This document shows, piece after piece, positions 2,465 through 8,806 of a stretch of DNA of 45,136 bases. The DNA lies in the IMG/VR virus record IMGVR_UViG_3300020190_002958, positions 1-45,136 of that record. The stretch is one strand, 5' to 3'. The notes beneath the pieces were generated by a model, which searched no databases, was not told where the DNA came from, and saw only the letters and a list, made by a program, of their open reading frames with translations. Position numbers and translations under genes: made by a program. The DNA comes from a virus. Within the stretch, counting starts at the first letter, position 1, and each line of letters opens with the position of its first letter.

Positions 2465-3625
2465 ATGAAATCTTATACAATTTATTTAGATATGGATGGT
2501 GTGCTTACTGACTGGGTAGGTAAGTTTAAACAATTGAGCAATGGAATAGATTCTGAAGATTATAAACAACGTTATGGCGAAAAAGCATATTATGACTTGG
2601 TAGATTCGGTTGGTGAACGTTTTTATTCACAATTGGAATGGTTGCCTGATGGCAAACAAATTGTAGATTATTTAAAAGATTATCCAGCTATAATATTGAG
2701 TAGCGGACCAACTGAATATGCTCAGGTTGGCAAAAAAATTTGGTTAAAGAATAACAACATACCTTTTAAGGCAATAATTGTAAGCAATAAAAAATACAAG
2801 GCAGATTACGCAAATAATAATAGTATATTAATTGATGATGATATTGATAATATTAACAATTTTAGAAAAGCGGGCGGTATTGGTGTATTACATAAAAATG
2901 CAAAAGATACTATAGAACAATTGAAACAAATACCAAATTTAGAAAAAAGATGGTATATTGAAAATACTACATTAAATCCAGAATTTTGGAATGGTAAAGT
3001 TTTAAAATCAGAAATTCAGCAAAAGCTTTTACAACACGCAAAATATTTCTATAAAGAAACAGAATTACAATCACCTATTGTTGATATTATAATGGTGGGA
3101 TCTAGTGCGGGTTACAACTGGACAAGTACTAGTGATATAGATCTACACATTGTATCGGACTTTAAACAAATAAATACAGATACAAATCTAGTCAAAAACT
3201 ACGTTAATGTATTACGTACGTCATGGAACGAAAAACACAACATCAAAATCAACAATCACGAAGTCGAAGTTTATATACAAGATATAAATCATCCAAATAG
3301 AAGTCATGGTATCTATTCAATTCTTAAAAATACATGGATAAAAGAACCTGACTTTGAAGGGGTTAATTTGGATAAAAATGAAATACTTAAAATTTATAGA
3401 GACTATAAAGCACAAATAGAGGCCGCCATATCCACAAAAAATCCAAATATAATGAAGGATCTAACAAAGAAAATTACTGATTATCGTAATGACGGATTGG
3501 CAACTCATGGAGAATTCAGCATACCAAACATAGTTTATAAACTTTTACGTAGACGAAACGACATGAAAAAATTGTATGATTCAATGAACGCCGCAATAGA
3601 CACAAAATTAAGCATAACAGTTTAA
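2465..3625 (+). CDS. HAD-type phosphatase fused to a Pol-beta-like nucleotidyltransferase
   Basis: The product is 386 residues with two domains. Residues 1-155 are a HAD hydrolase of the 5'-nucleotidase type. Motif I is DMDGVLTDW (9-17, nucleophile Asp9 and acid/base Asp11), motif II is ILSS (77-80), the motif III Lys is near 112, and motif IV is LIDDDIDN (around 122-129). Residues about 185-300 resemble a DNA polymerase beta-type nucleotidyltransferase: GS at 212-213 followed by SDIDLH (223-228), with a possible third acidic residue in HEVEVYIQ. The C-terminal 90 residues are helical and basic. The likely reactions are removal of a phosphate by the first half and transfer of a nucleotide by the second. 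The substrate is unknown. It sits upstream of the tail-tube gene with a late-type motif, so it may be made late. Confidence 0.75.
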   Translation: MKSYTIYLDMDGVLTDWVGKFKQLSNGIDSEDYKQRYGEKAYYDLVDSVGERFYSQLEWLPDGKQIVDYLKDYPAIILSSGPTEYAQVGKKIWLKNNNIPFKAIIVSNKKYKADYANNNSILIDDDIDNINNFRKAGGIGVLHKNAKDTIEQLKQIPNLEKRWYIENTTLNPEFWNGKVLKSEIQQKLLQHAKYFYKETELQSPIVDIIMVGSSAGYNWTSTSDIDLHIVSDFKQINTDTNLVKNYVNVLRTSWNEKHNIKINNHEVEVYIQDINHPNRSHGIYSILKNTWIKEPDFEGVNLDKNEILKIYRDYKAQIEAAISTKNPNIMKDLTKKITDYRNDGLATHGEFSIPNIVYKLLRRRNDMKKLYDSMNAAIDTKLSITV

Positions 3626-3698: not shown

Positions 3699-4190
3699 AT
3701 GGCAGAGCTACTTAATCCTACAGAAATTTTTTATACAAGTTTTGAACCAAAAGTTCAAAATAGATTTATTCTATTGTGTGATGGTATTCCATCATTTATT
3801 ATCAAAAAATGCAGCCGCCCATCAATTACACAACAAGCTAAAGAATTGGATCACATTAACATCAAGACTTACTACAAAGGTAAAACTACTTGGGGTCCAG
3901 TCAGTATGGAATTGTATGACCCAATCGTACCATCTGGTGCACAAGCTGTAATGGAATGGATTCGTCTAGGACACGAATCTGTAACAGGCCGTGATGGTTA
4001 TAGTGATTTCTATAAAAAAGATATAACTATTAACGTAGTAGGACCAGTGGGTGACAAAGTAGAAGAATGGACACTACGTGGTGCTTTTATTACCGAAGCT
4101 ACATTTGGTGATCTCGACTGGTCTAACGACGGGGACGCTTTGACAGTAAGTTTGACGGTCCAACCAGACTATTGTATTCTCCAATATTAA
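3699..4190 (+). CDS. Tail tube protein, T4 gp19 type
   Basis: The product is 163 residues, the same size as T4 gp19. It has the expected pattern: NRFILLCDGIPSFIIKKCSR near residues 20-40, a YYKGKTTWGPVSMELYDP segment, GAQAVMEWI and a C-terminal DYCILQY. In T4 this protein forms the hexameric rings of the inner tube through which DNA passes, built on the gp48/gp54 platform and measured by the tape-measure protein, whose candidate lies 2 kb downstream. The start is chosen for its AAGGA ribosome-binding site. A strong terminator follows 22 bases after the stop, which fits a separately and strongly expressed gene. Confidence 0.88.
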   Translation: MAELLNPTEIFYTSFEPKVQNRFILLCDGIPSFIIKKCSRPSITQQAKELDHINIKTYYKGKTTWGPVSMELYDPIVPSGAQAVMEWIRLGHESVTGRDGYSDFYKKDITINVVGPVGDKVEEWTLRGAFITEATFGDLDWSNDGDALTVSLTVQPDYCILQY

Positions 4191-4266: not shown

Positions 4267-5139
4267 ATGAATCAAGTAGTCGTATTGTTACCAGGCGGAT
4301 TTAAACCACCACATGCAGGACACTTGGGTCTTGCCAACAAATTTGCTAGTAGACCTGATGTGTCCAAAGTAATAGTTATGGTTGGACCAAGCGAACGTAA
4401 CGGCATAGGTTTACAACAAAGTTTAGCAATTTGGAATTTGTTGAAAAAAAATCCAAAGGTACAGGTACAGTCTGTAGACAACGACAGCCCTATGAATTCG
4501 GCGTTTGGTTATGTATTTAATCTACCAAAAAACAGTGTGGAAACTATAGCTTTAGGTGCAAGTGCAAAAAGTTTAGAAGATGCAAAAAGAAGTAAAATAT
4601 TTGCATTAGCTGTAGAACGTTACAAAACCAAACCAACAAAAGATGGTGCTACTGCACCAACAGGTATTCAAGTTGTTGACATGACAGACGACGTTCCTGC
4701 TATTTATCTGGGCAGAAATGATGATAAAAATGGTCGAAGTATCAGTGCTAGTACACTTAGACAAGATATAGCTGATAAAAACTTTGAAAACTTTAAAACG
4801 AACTATCCTAACATAAGTCTTCCAGTAGTTAAACAAATTTATAAAATACTAACCAATATGAATATTAAAGAAAGATTCGAAAAATTACCAAAAGAAAAGA
4901 AAGAACTATTAAAAAACTTGGTCAATGAAAAAGTAAAGTCACTTAAACGTGAACTTATGAATGCTAAAATCAAAGATAAAGTTCATGAATATGTTACCGG
5001 CGAAGAAGATTCTTCATCTACTTATCCTTCGATAGATGTATCGTTTACCGAACAAAAGAAAAAGAATGTTAAAATTCAAGAGTTACAAACCCGTCTTGAA
5101 AAATTAACAAAAGCAATTGATACATTAAAAATAAAATAA
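4267..5139 (+). CDS. HxGH-type nucleotidyltransferase (cytidylyl/adenylyl transferase fold)
   Basis: The product is 290 residues. Residues 1-200 show the HxGH nucleotidyltransferase superfamily: LPGGFKPPHAGHLGLA near the N terminus (HAGH is the nucleotide-binding signature), VMVGPS, and GRSISASTLRQDI near residue 160, which matches the ISxxTLR motif. Family members join a nucleotide to a small phosphate compound, as in CTP:glycerol-3-phosphate cytidylyltransferase or NMN adenylyltransferase. The substrate cannot be told apart here. The last 95 residues are a charged helical extension (EKLPKEKKELLKNLVNEK, then a coiled coil) not found in the minimal enzymes, and it may attach to another protein. 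The gene stands between tail tube and tail chaperone. Confidence 0.75.
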   Translation: MNQVVVLLPGGFKPPHAGHLGLANKFASRPDVSKVIVMVGPSERNGIGLQQSLAIWNLLKKNPKVQVQSVDNDSPMNSAFGYVFNLPKNSVETIALGASAKSLEDAKRSKIFALAVERYKTKPTKDGATAPTGIQVVDMTDDVPAIYLGRNDDKNGRSISASTLRQDIADKNFENFKTNYPNISLPVVKQIYKILTNMNIKERFEKLPKEKKELLKNLVNEKVKSLKRELMNAKIKDKVHEYVTGEEDSSSTYPSIDVSFTEQKKKNVKIQELQTRLEKLTKAIDTLKIK

Positions 5140-5179: not shown

Positions 5180-5986
5180 ATGAGTGACGAGATTTACATC
5201 CAACGAAACAACAATAATCAACCAACTGTAAGCAAATTTCCTTCTGAACAAATAGATCTACCATCAGAAGGGTGTGTTTATCCAACAAATCACCCCCTTA
5301 GTAACGGTAAAGTAGAACTTAAGTATATGACCGCTAGAGAAGAGGATATTCTTACAAATGCTAATAACATTCGTAGAGGTAACGCTTTAGACAAATTATT
5401 GGAATCGTTGATTGTTGAAAAGGATGTCAAGTTAAACGATCTAATTAGTGCCGATAAAAGTGCTTTGATTATAGCCTGTAGACGATTAGCTTATGGTGAC
5501 AATTATGGACCATTTAAATATAAATGTCCAAAATGTGGTGAAGACAGTCAACATAACTTTGATATTTCAAAACTAGTAAATGTAAATATACCCGACGAAA
5601 ATAGACCAAAAAACAATAATGCATTCGAATGTACATTACCATTTTCAAAACGTGTTGTTACAATCAAGTTATTGACTCATAGAGATGAAACTGAGATTGA
5701 AAATGAACTTAAAGCGTTAAAGAAGATATCAGCAGACAATGTACCTGAACTGAGTACACGCTTGAAATATCATATAGTATCAGTTGACGACAATCCAGAC
5801 AGAGGTTATATACGATCATTTGTTGATAAAGAACTACTATCTAGAGACAGTTTGGAATTACGCAGATTTATCAAAAAAGTATCACCCGATGTAGAACTCA
5901 AGTTTGACTTTCAATGTAACAGTTGTAGTCATGAGGACAGACTGGAGGTGCCGTTGACGGCTGAATTTTTTTGGCCTTCGACCTGA
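5180..5986 (+). CDS. gp26-type baseplate hub/tail chaperone protein with zinc ribbon
   Basis: The product is 268 residues. IDLPSEGCVYP near residue 27, YMTAREEDIL near 50 and an LL.SLI.....DL region match the T4 baseplate hub gp26 type. A zinc ribbon is visible: CPKCGEDS near residue 115 and CNSCSHEDR near 249. The protein ends AEFFWPST. The equivalent position, upstream of the tape-measure gene, is held by the G/GT tail chaperones in lambda. Next to its stop, a T7 run allows entry to a frame that stays open to 6203, so a longer form is likely. The start ATG lies 40 bases after the nucleotidyltransferase stop with no strong ribosome-binding site. Identity as a hub-assembly chaperone rather than a fixed hub subunit is inferred. 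Confidence 0.7.
   Translation: MSDEIYIQRNNNNQPTVSKFPSEQIDLPSEGCVYPTNHPLSNGKVELKYMTAREEDILTNANNIRRGNALDKLLESLIVEKDVKLNDLISADKSALIIACRRLAYGDNYGPFKYKCPKCGEDSQHNFDISKLVNVNIPDENRPKNNNAFECTLPFSKRVVTIKLLTHRDETEIENELKALKKISADNVPELSTRLKYHIVSVDDNPDRGYIRSFVDKELLSRDSLELRRFIKKVSPDVELKFDFQCNSCSHEDRLEVPLTAEFFWPST
5966..5972 (+). promoter_or_regulatory. Candidate slippery T7 run for a programmed frameshift
   Basis: Seven T's read as GAA TTT TTT TGG in the main frame, four codons before the TGA at 5984-5986. A +1 (or -2) shift here enters a frame that is open from 5958 to 6203. Confidence 0.55.
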
Positions 5987-6203
5987 AGATAGACTCGTAA
6001 TATACGACACTCTATTTTTGATTTCCTATAACTCAGAAGGTGCTGTATCATTTTATGATGCTTATGATATGCCTGTATTTTTGCGTAATTATTATCTAAA
6101 GAAATTGTTAGAAACGAAGAATAAAGAAAGTCAAGCAGAAGATAAGGCAGCTAATCCTACAAATATCAAAAAAAGCATAGGTAAAATAAAACCAGGCTGG
6201 TAA
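5973..6203 (+). CDS. Frameshift extension of the tail chaperone (gp51/T-like part)
   Basis: The frame is open from 5958 and encodes, after the T-run, GLRPEDRLVIYDTLFLISY, then YDAYDMPVFLRNYYLKKLL and a charged tail ending KIKPGW. The best available starts are a TTG at 6018 and an ATG at 6066, and both would discard the protein-like segment before them. The sequence is therefore best read as a C-terminal extension reached by frameshifting from the 5180 gene. The Y.MP...R.YYLKK pattern resembles the second half of hub-chaperone pairs (gp51 in T4, T in lambda GT). It could instead be a separate gene with the TTG start, or a real mutation. It ends 26 bases before the tape-measure gene. Confidence 0.55.
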   Translation, partial: GLRPEDRLVIYDTLFLISYNSEGAVSFYDAYDMPVFLRNYYLKKLLETKNKESQAEDKAANPTNIKKSIGKIKPGW

Positions 6204-6229: not shown

Positions 6230-8806
6230 ATGGCGAAAGACGAAGCACCAAAACTAAAAGAAAATGTCAAGGCTGCATCCGATGTAGCAGACTATTCGGA
6301 GGAGAGGGCCCGTTCAGAGCAACGTACATCCGCTGCTATGGAACAACAGTTAGACATGGCTCAAAAATTAAAACTATACCAAAAAGAGTTGAACGATTTG
6401 AGAGAGAAAGAAATTACATTTTTAAAAATGGGGTTTGGTATAAGCGAAAAAATACAAAAAGTAAAAGATATAGAAAATAAAAAAGAAGAAATGTTACAAG
6501 CGTTGACTGATGAAATTATAAAAGAAACAGAAAAAGGAAACAGTGAAAAACTTCAGAAATTGATAGCTCAAAAAGCGCAACTTCAAGATCAAAATACATT
6601 ATTTAAAAGACAGGCTTTTTATTTAAAAAGTAGTATTTATGCGGAAGAAATATTTAATACTGCTGCTTTGGCTGTATATGAATCACAAGATAAAATTGCA
6701 TCAGCTTTGGGCAAAGGCGTACTTGAACTGTTAAAACAACGTTCACTTTTTGGTATAATACAAACGGCTACAAAAACTATATTAGATTTTGCACTAGCAA
6801 TTGATGATGAAATTGTAAAGCAAAACAGAGAACTAAATTTCAGCAGACAAGCTAATCGTGACTTAAACGAGTTAACTTTAAATATATACAAAAACAATGC
6901 TGCTAATGGCTTGACTTTAGAAGATGCGGTTAAATCGACAAACACATTAACGAAAACATTCGGTAAAAGTGTTGCACTCACAAGTGGATTGGCTGAAGAT
7001 TTATCACAATTAGAAAATAAACTTGGTTTATCGACAGAAACTAGCGCAGCCTTTTTAGATAATATGGGCGCTGTAAGTCGTGATGTTGATAGTGCATCTG
7101 CTTCAAGTATATTTTTCGCTAAACAGATAAGTAAAACATCGGGCGTAGGCCTTGGTGATTTGATGAAAGAAGCTGCAGACGCAAGTGGCGATTTAGCAAT
7201 ATTTTCAGGTCAGTCAGGTACGAACATTTTGAAAGCTGCTGCAAATGCTAAATTACTGGGTGTATCACTTAACAGCTTTGTAAATGCTTCAAGTAAATCA
7301 TTACAGTTTCAAAGTAGTATACAAGCTGAATTAAAGGCAAGTGTATTATTGGGTAAAAATTTGAATCTACAAGGATTACGTCGGGCTGCTTTTAATAAAG
7401 ACACACTTGGTGTAGAACGTGAATTATTAAACATCATTAAACGTACAGGCAAATCATTAAAGGATTTAGATCCTATACAAATGCAAGCATTAGCCGATGC
7501 AACTGGTTTGACAGCGGAAGAAATGTTAAAGATTGAAAACAGAAGAAAATTGGATAAAAAAACATTACAAGAAATTGATAAAATCCGTAAAGAATCATTA
7601 GTTGATGGTGAAAAGACTGCAAAACAAGATGCACTGAGAGCAGAGAATTTGAATCAGATACGTATGTTAGGCACAAGACTTGCTGGTATGTTAGCTGAAA
7701 TAGTTGTACCCTTAATACCACAAATAAACAGAGTAATGGTAGGTATTACCCGATTTTTTACAGACAATAAAGAACAAATACAAGCTCTCGGTAAAGGATT
7801 GGTTGACACCATCGTACCCGCTTTAAAAGCAGTTGCAAAATTTTTGTTACCATCTGCCGGTGGTAAAGGACCGTTGTTTGGAATGATTCAACCTGGCCCT
7901 TGGACGAAATTTGCAGGTATAATCGCGGGCACTGTTTTATCTATAAATCTTTTGGTTAAAGGTGTAAAAGGTATAGGTAGCGCTATTAATGCCACGGTTG
8001 TACAACCCGTTAAAACAGTAATAGATACAGCAAAGTCAGCATTAGATTACGGAAAAAAAGGTATTAATATATTCAAAGGTTTTAGAAAAGGTGGTATAAA
8101 AGGTGGTATAACTGCTGCAGTTGGTGAAGCAACTAAAGGTGAAAAGGGAGAAGACAAATGTTGTGCCGGAGTAAGTAGTGCAGCAGATTCAATTTCAACT
8201 GTTGCTGAAACAATGACTGAAGGACTGTTGGGTAAACAAATTGGTACTTTTATTGCAAGATTTTTACCTGCTGGATTGAAACCTGTATTTGCAGGTTTAT
8301 TTACAAGTTTAGGTGGATTTTTAGGCACTTCAATTAGCGGAATTTTAGCTGGTAGTGCAGCTGCAATTGCGGGAGCAGCTACAGCGGCTGTAGGTACCGC
8401 TGTAGGTGGTTATATGTTAGGTGGTCATTTAGAAGAAAAATACGGTCTTGGCACACGGCTGCTTGAGGAAAAATCAATAACAGGCGGACCATCACTAACT
8501 CGTAGATTGAGTGGTTTACACGCAATGGATTTGGAACGAGAAGAACATGAGAAAAAAATTAAAGAAATGGAAAATAAATTGTCTGAAAAGAAAGCACGTA
8601 AGATGGTAGGTTTAAGTACAAGTGGTGAACTAACTCCCGACCAACAATCTGCAATTAATGGCCTTGTAGAAAAATTCGGAGAAAAACTAGCTAATTTACC
8701 ACAAAATGTTGTACAAGTTGAATATAGTAGATTCCAACAAAATAGTTCAGTAGCGTCGAGTCGTGGTAATAAAAATCAGGTGTCAGTGATGCCACAAATA
8801 AATTAA
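6230..8806 (+). CDS. Tape-measure-like protein
   Basis: The product is 858 residues. The first 130 are charged coiled coil (EARSEQRTSAAMEQQL region, then repeated K/E heptads). Residues about 200-480 are alpha-helical and Ala/Ser-rich. Residues about 500-760 contain several hydrophobic stretches (LAGMLAEIVVPLIPQI, FAGIIAGTVLSINLLV, and an Ala/Gly-rich one near GILAGSAAAIAGAATAAVG), as in tape measures that later contact the membrane. The last 90 residues are again coiled coil. A lone CC pair occurs in EDKCCAGV. Size, composition and place (tail tube, chaperone with frameshift, this gene, baseplate) fit a tape measure, the functional equivalent of T4 gp29, although no motif proves it. Confidence 0.72.
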   Translation: MAKDEAPKLKENVKAASDVADYSEERARSEQRTSAAMEQQLDMAQKLKLYQKELNDLREKEITFLKMGFGISEKIQKVKDIENKKEEMLQALTDEIIKETEKGNSEKLQKLIAQKAQLQDQNTLFKRQAFYLKSSIYAEEIFNTAALAVYESQDKIASALGKGVLELLKQRSLFGIIQTATKTILDFALAIDDEIVKQNRELNFSRQANRDLNELTLNIYKNNAANGLTLEDAVKSTNTLTKTFGKSVALTSGLAEDLSQLENKLGLSTETSAAFLDNMGAVSRDVDSASASSIFFAKQISKTSGVGLGDLMKEAADASGDLAIFSGQSGTNILKAAANAKLLGVSLNSFVNASSKSLQFQSSIQAELKASVLLGKNLNLQGLRRAAFNKDTLGVERELLNIIKRTGKSLKDLDPIQMQALADATGLTAEEMLKIENRRKLDKKTLQEIDKIRKESLVDGEKTAKQDALRAENLNQIRMLGTRLAGMLAEIVVPLIPQINRVMVGITRFFTDNKEQIQALGKGLVDTIVPALKAVAKFLLPSAGGKGPLFGMIQPGPWTKFAGIIAGTVLSINLLVKGVKGIGSAINATVVQPVKTVIDTAKSALDYGKKGINIFKGFRKGGIKGGITAAVGEATKGEKGEDKCCAGVSSAADSISTVAETMTEGLLGKQIGTFIARFLPAGLKPVFAGLFTSLGGFLGTSISGILAGSAAAIAGAATAAVGTAVGGYMLGGHLEEKYGLGTRLLEEKSITGGPSLTRRLSGLHAMDLEREEHEKKIKEMENKLSEKKARKMVGLSTSGELTPDQQSAINGLVEKFGEKLANLPQNVVQVEYSRFQQNSSVASSRGNKNQVSVMPQIN

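Follow-up and report, generated by a model that had tools for sequence, protein, structure and literature searches.

Frameshifting in the tail chaperone genes of phages related to T4 has reportedly been described by Vladimirov, Gautam and Davidson (2022, Virology 566:9-15), whose work is said to show that several T4-like groups have kept the frameshift and to name genes 26 and 51 in T4. According to passages of a published review, G/GT frameshifting is kept in a wide range of phages, with T4 as an exception, and -1, -2 and +1 cases exist (PMC5009743). The 2022 work is cited in the PRFect paper, where the citing passage states that some T4-like phages have one short and one fused gene (PMC10885494), and in the Adele paper, where the citing passage concerns poly-T -1 signals in T4-like chaperone genes (PMC12846349). 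A further paper, in the passage that deals with them, describes T4 gp26 and gp51 as hub assembly chaperones (PMC3004832).

We analysed a 45,136-base virus record of an uncultured T4-like phage from IMG/VR (GC 31.6%; this whole stretch is called the window), in which a gp26-type gene is placed between the tail tube and tape measure genes, as in frameshifted tail chaperones (Table 1). PF12322 (T4 base plate protein) matched the gp26-type gene at 2.9e-16 (score 60.3, cut-off 24.5 bits), and phrog_150 matched it at 6.8e-17. The PF12322 match extends to the end of the profile. Therefore, the zero-frame product, which ends in ...AEFFWPST, looks complete. The product of the downstream gene shows 25% identity to the annotated tape measure of immuto over 430 columns (E 5e-12), which agrees with the tape-measure-like gene that an earlier note on this DNA had placed here; no Pfam or PHROG match below 0.05 was found for this gene. 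A cytidylyltransferase-like gene (4267-5139) sits between the tail tube and chaperone genes, and a gene for a fusion of 5'-nucleotidase and nucleotidyltransferase (2465-3625) adjoins the tail tube gene.

Table 1. Positions in the window of the gp26-type gene, its proposed frameshift site and extension, and the neighbouring tail genes.
Feature	Position	Strand	Basis or remark
gp19-type tail tube gene, upstream neighbour	3699..4190	+	PF06841 1e-6, phrog_4542 1.9e-27
gp26-type gene, short tail assembly chaperone (TAC-N, zero-frame product, 268 aa)	5180..5986	+	PF12322, phrog_150, model pLDDT 91
Open +1 frame, start codon absent before residue 16 of the domain	5958..6203	+	Sequence and homologues
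T7 slippery run, codons TTT TTT T/GG	5966..5972	+	Proposed P-site Phe codon 5969-5971, re-pairing on 5970-5972
C-terminal extension of the proposed long form (TAC-C / T domain, 76 aa, three predicted helices)	5973..6203	+	Conservation, alignment, predicted fold
Zero-frame TGA stop, 4 codons past the proposed slip codon	5984..5986	+	
Tape measure gene, downstream neighbour	6230..8806	+	Similarity to Flavobacterium phage immuto tape measure

The gp26-type gene stops right after the T7 run, and the +1 frame is open across this stop, both as the earlier note had read them. The open +1 frame consists of 81 codons, followed by TAA. It contains an in-frame TTG at 6018 (residue 16 of the downstream domain), as had been noted, and an ATG (residue 33), which lies at 6069 and not at 6066 as had been given. 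The +1 frame remains open for 217 nt past the stop of the gp26-type gene. Among the 26 long plus-strand genes examined in the window, the next highest value is 82 nt, and the gp26-type gene is the only one with at least 100 nt of open +1 frame beyond its stop. The plus strand of the window has 16 runs of T7 or longer, and a T7 run by itself is not rare here. The weight of the case rests on conservation.

We propose that two tail assembly chaperones are made from this one gene by a +1 slip at the T7 run, and on the sequence evidence we hold this to be highly probable. Most ribosomes would read gp26 to the TGA codon and give the short form. Some ribosomes, with peptidyl-tRNA-Phe on UUU 5969-5971, would slip one base forward; the tRNA would re-pair with UUU 5970-5972, GGC would be taken in, and reading would continue to 6203. 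The resulting long form would have 340 aa, namely gp26 residues 1-264 and the 76-aa helical domain. If the two forms work as G and GT do in lambda, binding to the tape measure would fall to the part that they share, and recruitment of tail tube subunits to the extension. The conserved site, the start-less +1 domain with its signs of purifying selection, the predicted fold and the neighbouring genes are seen in the sequence; the occurrence of the shift, its direction (+1 and not -2), the proportion of the two products and what each of them binds are inferred. By all of this evidence the programmed frameshift appears real, and a second, longer form is very probably made.

The overlap and the T run are both kept in the homologues. 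Among the best 80 gp26 loci of a larger number found in an IMG/VR scan, the gp26 end reads TTT or TTC, then TTT T, then GG, AC or TC, then CCT at 79, and the run is T7 or longer at 76 of these 79 matching sites. When the Microcystis phage Mel-JY01 (L084) is added to the 79 loci, the 80 sites fall into four types: TTT TTT TGG CCT (64), TTT TTT TAC CCT (11), TTC TTT TGG CCT (3) and TTT TTT TTC CCT (2). The only one of the best 80 loci without a slippery site is L037. The frame of the downstream domain was assigned by an HMM that was built from 36 of the same loci on which it was then run. In these best 80 loci, the domain is in the +1 frame in 77 and in the -1 frame in one (L037), and it is absent in L030 and L078, whose contigs end at the site. 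At 82 of 85 sites, the zero-frame stop comes 4-6 codons after the slip codon. All 73 distinct junctions have TTT as the P-site codon, as compared with 592 of 706 other Phe codons of the same genes; because the junction sequences are related, this bias does not count as independent evidence. Outside the junction, the 73 gp26-type genes contain no T7 run. Moreover, the diverged phages SP-15, LIS04, GXN1 and immuto retain the +1 overlap. The homologues thus support what the earlier note had supposed, namely a frameshift by which the gp26-type chaperone acquires an extension that has no start of its own and is encoded upstream of the tape measure.

The +1 frame beyond the overlap was compared in 102 related pairs, and 757, 462 and 1460 differences were counted at codon positions 1, 2 and 3, respectively. 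This pattern marks the downstream domain as a protein under purifying selection, in line with the protein-like segment noted earlier. Because homopolymer runs are error-prone, an error of sequencing or assembly has to be weighed, along with decay of the gene. We give these explanations a negligible probability: the layout is shared by 77 of the best 80 IMG/VR homologues, the +1 frame shows purifying selection, and two further IMG/VR contigs are identical across the junction (L001 and L081 on one contig, L082 on another; L081 and L082 served for confirmation of the junction only). Since these two contigs share the junction and the diverged homologues share the layout, sequencing error is unlikely, which speaks against the correction of the T run that had been named as a way to overturn the frameshift. 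Chance overlap, tried along with sequencing error, was ruled out by the +1-frame statistics, the homologues and the contigs with the identical junction.

The earlier note had left open whether the shift is +1 or -2. At all 85 sites for which a slip codon was assigned, re-pairing of Phe-tRNA on UUY after a +1 slip is possible; because the slip codon was chosen by a rule that requires +1 re-pairing, this count is not independent evidence for +1. The -2 movement known from phage Mu would lead to the same frame with one more Phe (FFFGL instead of FFGL), and UUU in the P-site can re-pair two bases back at 78 of the 85 sites, including that of the window, which permits both movements. However, -2 re-pairing is impossible at seven of the 85 (L002, L003, L009, immuto, LIS04, GXN1 and LR756508), which re-pair at +1 only, though it was by +1 re-pairing that their slip codons were picked. 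Because these seven sites allow +1 and do not allow -2, a +1 slip of peptidyl-tRNA-Phe is favoured and we consider the -2 shift improbable. Since the homologues favour +1, Mu is also the weaker of the parallels that had been drawn.

T runs can cause slippage of RNA polymerase. If the polymerase dropped one U on the T7 run, ordinary translation of the transcript would yield the long form, and the predominance of T7 or longer runs at the matching sites fits such slippage. However, sites with short runs keep the same layout, for example TTC TTT TGG in L002, L003 and L009, and also the sites of immuto, GXN1 and LR756508. We therefore think transcriptional slippage quite improbable and continue with the +1 ribosomal slip. 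As stimulators of this slip, we looked for RNA structure in the 60 nt downstream, where there was no group-wide signal (mean folding z -0.66, 76 sites), and for an internal Shine-Dalgarno sequence upstream, where the best anti-SD energy (-2.96) was close to that in control windows (-2.31).

For the downstream domain, alignments A1 (40 rows) and A2 (36 rows) were drawn from 57 non-redundant domains, and alignment A3 comprised 36 gp26 rows. In the 40-row domain alignment, L2, Y31, P34 and R38 are invariant. In the model of the domain, helices are predicted at residues 4-20, 27-32 and 35-60, with a mean pLDDT of about 90 or more over residues 1-60. Because helices are predicted there, starts at TTG 6018 or ATG 6069 would cut into them: the former loses most of helix 1, and the latter loses helices 1 and 2. 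It had been noted that both starts trim conserved-looking residues, which agrees with this loss. The domain could instead be a separate protein with a start of its own, at one of these two codons or at a non-standard one. Domain copies with their own ATG do exist in RL38J1, Cygsa01 and L090, and in the cyanophage-like group an ATG is present just past the gp26 stop. However, in the group of the window no start ahead of the domain is conserved in position; the common ATG (+33) encodes the M in a YNMP motif that belongs to the domain itself, and beginning at the ATG or the TTG sacrifices conserved helices. A downstream part with its own conserved start and no slippery run was looked for among the homologues as the finding that would speak against frameshifting, and no conserved start was found in the window's group. 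We therefore regard a separate start as very unlikely.

The structural model of the gp26-type product gave its best structural alignments, among 457 chains, with YqbN (Z 5.8), which we take to be a phage-type chaperone, and with the HK97 tail assembly chaperone (Z 5.5). These scores are middling, and the alignments fall within gp26 residues 1-111. A Foldseek search of the model against the PDB gave nothing significant, and a PDB sequence search with the gp26 profile gave one chance-level match; with the T-domain profile, the PDB sequence search gave nothing. The window's own downstream domain has no Pfam match, and its only PHROG match is phrog_20255 at E 0.17. The best match of the T domain in a BFVD search was at 9.9e-3.

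In T4, gp26 and gp51 both match PF12322 over nearly the whole gp26-like part (8.8e-64 and 3.9e-52), and gp51 alone has about 48 extra residues, which are homologous to small ORFs of other T4-like phages. For example, phrog_634 (baseplate hub assembly catalyst) connects gp51 with small ORFs of Sf-FS3, Cygsa01 and RL38J1. Domains were then compared by hhalign; profile C was made from 37 of 86 loci with Cygsa01 and RL38J1, after which identical rows were removed, and the gp51 profile contained 8 sequences. The domain of the window group aligned with that of SP-15, LIS04 and GXN1 at 95% and with the cyanophage-like ORF at 83%. Its direct alignment with the gp51 C-terminus was weak (21%, score 21.9), in register, and with a score reached by 0 of 100 shuffles; with the Chrysonvirus domain it was unmatched (0.3%). 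The C-terminal part of gp51 (about 48 residues) aligned with the cyanophage-like small ORF at 97% and with the Chrysonvirus domain at 95%. Thus, the window-group domain is linked to gp51 through the cyanophage-like ORF. Six comparisons, which do not include that between Chrysonvirus and the window group, were given column-shuffled controls, and in each of them none of 100 shuffles scored as high as the real alignment. From the PF12322 and gp51 links, the domain comparisons and the structural alignments, we interpret the short form as a tail assembly chaperone, to which the shifted domain would contribute the T part.

DUF6760 (PF20546) matches 11 of the 40 domains in alignment A1 (best 1.2e-5), an indication that tail-chaperone T domains belong to this uncharacterised family. 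In contrast to these members, the window's own copy is unmatched by PF20546, and controls were below the cut-off too. The match carries no function name, and the literature searched on DUF6760 and on the named phages gave nothing useful.

Other arrangements are found in the relatives. In Straboviridae such as T4, gp26 and the longer gp51 are encoded by divergent genes, and genes 26 and 51 appear, from their sequences, to be unlinked counterparts of the short and long forms. The domain is in the -1 frame and gp26 ends in T_TTT_TTC in all 80 cyanophage-like loci, in 4 Chrysonvirus-type loci and in 1 locus of Rhizobium phage IC12. Because the cyanophage-like loci also have the ATG after the stop, either route is possible there, and these phages may use the frameshift or an own start. 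The Chrysonvirus and IC12 domains start upstream of their first ATG. In RL38J1 and Cygsa01, the gp26 stop and the start of a small ORF overlap. In the SP-15 twin, the domain is in the +1 frame.

In an unrooted gp26 tree of 63 rows, a hand-picked part of the available ones, all 31 +1 rows lie within a single group of 33 (support 100/100, branch 2.72), whose other two members are L037 (-1) and L090 (separate). One switch of frameshift direction would be the simplest reading, with deep placements uncertain because of long branches. In L037 (IMGVR_UViG_3300020379_001606, about 3760-3990), which is nested in the +1 clade, TTC TTC TGG replaces the T run and the domain is in the -1 frame; this points either to an erroneous indel or to the direction having changed a second time. 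L090 (LR756511.1, a 595-kb uncultured phage, about 3740-3925) has a longer gp26 C-terminus, and its T domain is encoded by a gene of its own that starts at TAATG. In bacterial and archaeal genomes searched for relatives, one contig only was found. L190 (JABHXC010000041.1, 17-960), from a Candidatus Woesearchaeota bin, also has this gp26/T pair (TTTTTTTGG, +1 frame) and is probably a phage contig within that bin.

The analysis also corrects annotation, since public records of related phages omit the T-domain gene, start it late or call it a separate hypothetical protein. The records of immuto (L085, 3724-3949) and SP-15 (L086, 3775-3976) give an unrelated short ORF where the T domain belongs, and that of LIS04 gives no ORF after gp26. 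In the Mel-JY01 record the domain is a separate overlapping hypothetical protein, and in those of phiAS5 (L098, 4762-4884) and IC12 (L093, 4720-4860) it starts too late.

A wider reading, for and against which we see the case as evenly balanced, is that evolution reversed the direction of frameshifting in one gene, at a single pair of Phe codons. Phages with T_TTT_TTC would shift by -1, and a large uncultured clade with TTT_TTT_T, together with the related site of SP-15-type phages, would shift by +1 on bare UUU_U, without a stop codon in the A-site, a Shine-Dalgarno sequence or a stimulatory RNA structure; the T4 lineage would have put the two products in the separate genes 26 and 51. One gene would then offer a natural comparison of opposite frameshift directions at the same two codons, and what sets the direction of the slip on U runs would be directly testable with reporters.

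The locus shares with lambda G/GT and other frameshifted tail chaperones the proposed formation of two chaperones, one short and one extended, from a single gene that immediately precedes the tape measure. The likeness to lambda G/GT drawn here is one of arrangement, and the alignment of the gp26 model to HK97 and YqbN is at middling Z. The likeness to T4 gp26 and gp51 lies in PF12322 membership; however, T4 has two genes in opposite orientation and no shift, whereas the window has one gene and an overlapping frame. Also among the closest systems are the T4-like chaperones, which, in the passages citing the 2022 work, share a gp26-family short form and a small frameshift-made C-terminal domain upstream of the tape measure (PMC10885494, PMC12846349). 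The same citations largely remove the surprise that the earlier note had implied in a G/GT system of a T4-like phage. Because they report frameshifting of T4-like chaperones, the kind is counted as known and the locus in the window is a new member of it. For T4-like chaperones, the Adele paper cites -1 signals on poly-T (PMC12846349); by contrast, the window and 77 of its best 80 homologues have the domain in the +1 frame. In the literature searched, which did not extend to the full text of Vladimirov et al. (2022), we found no +1 shift in T4-like chaperones. Thus, the frameshifted chaperone gene belongs to a known kind, and its +1 direction, which many uncultured relatives have kept, seems to be a variant that is unusual for its family.
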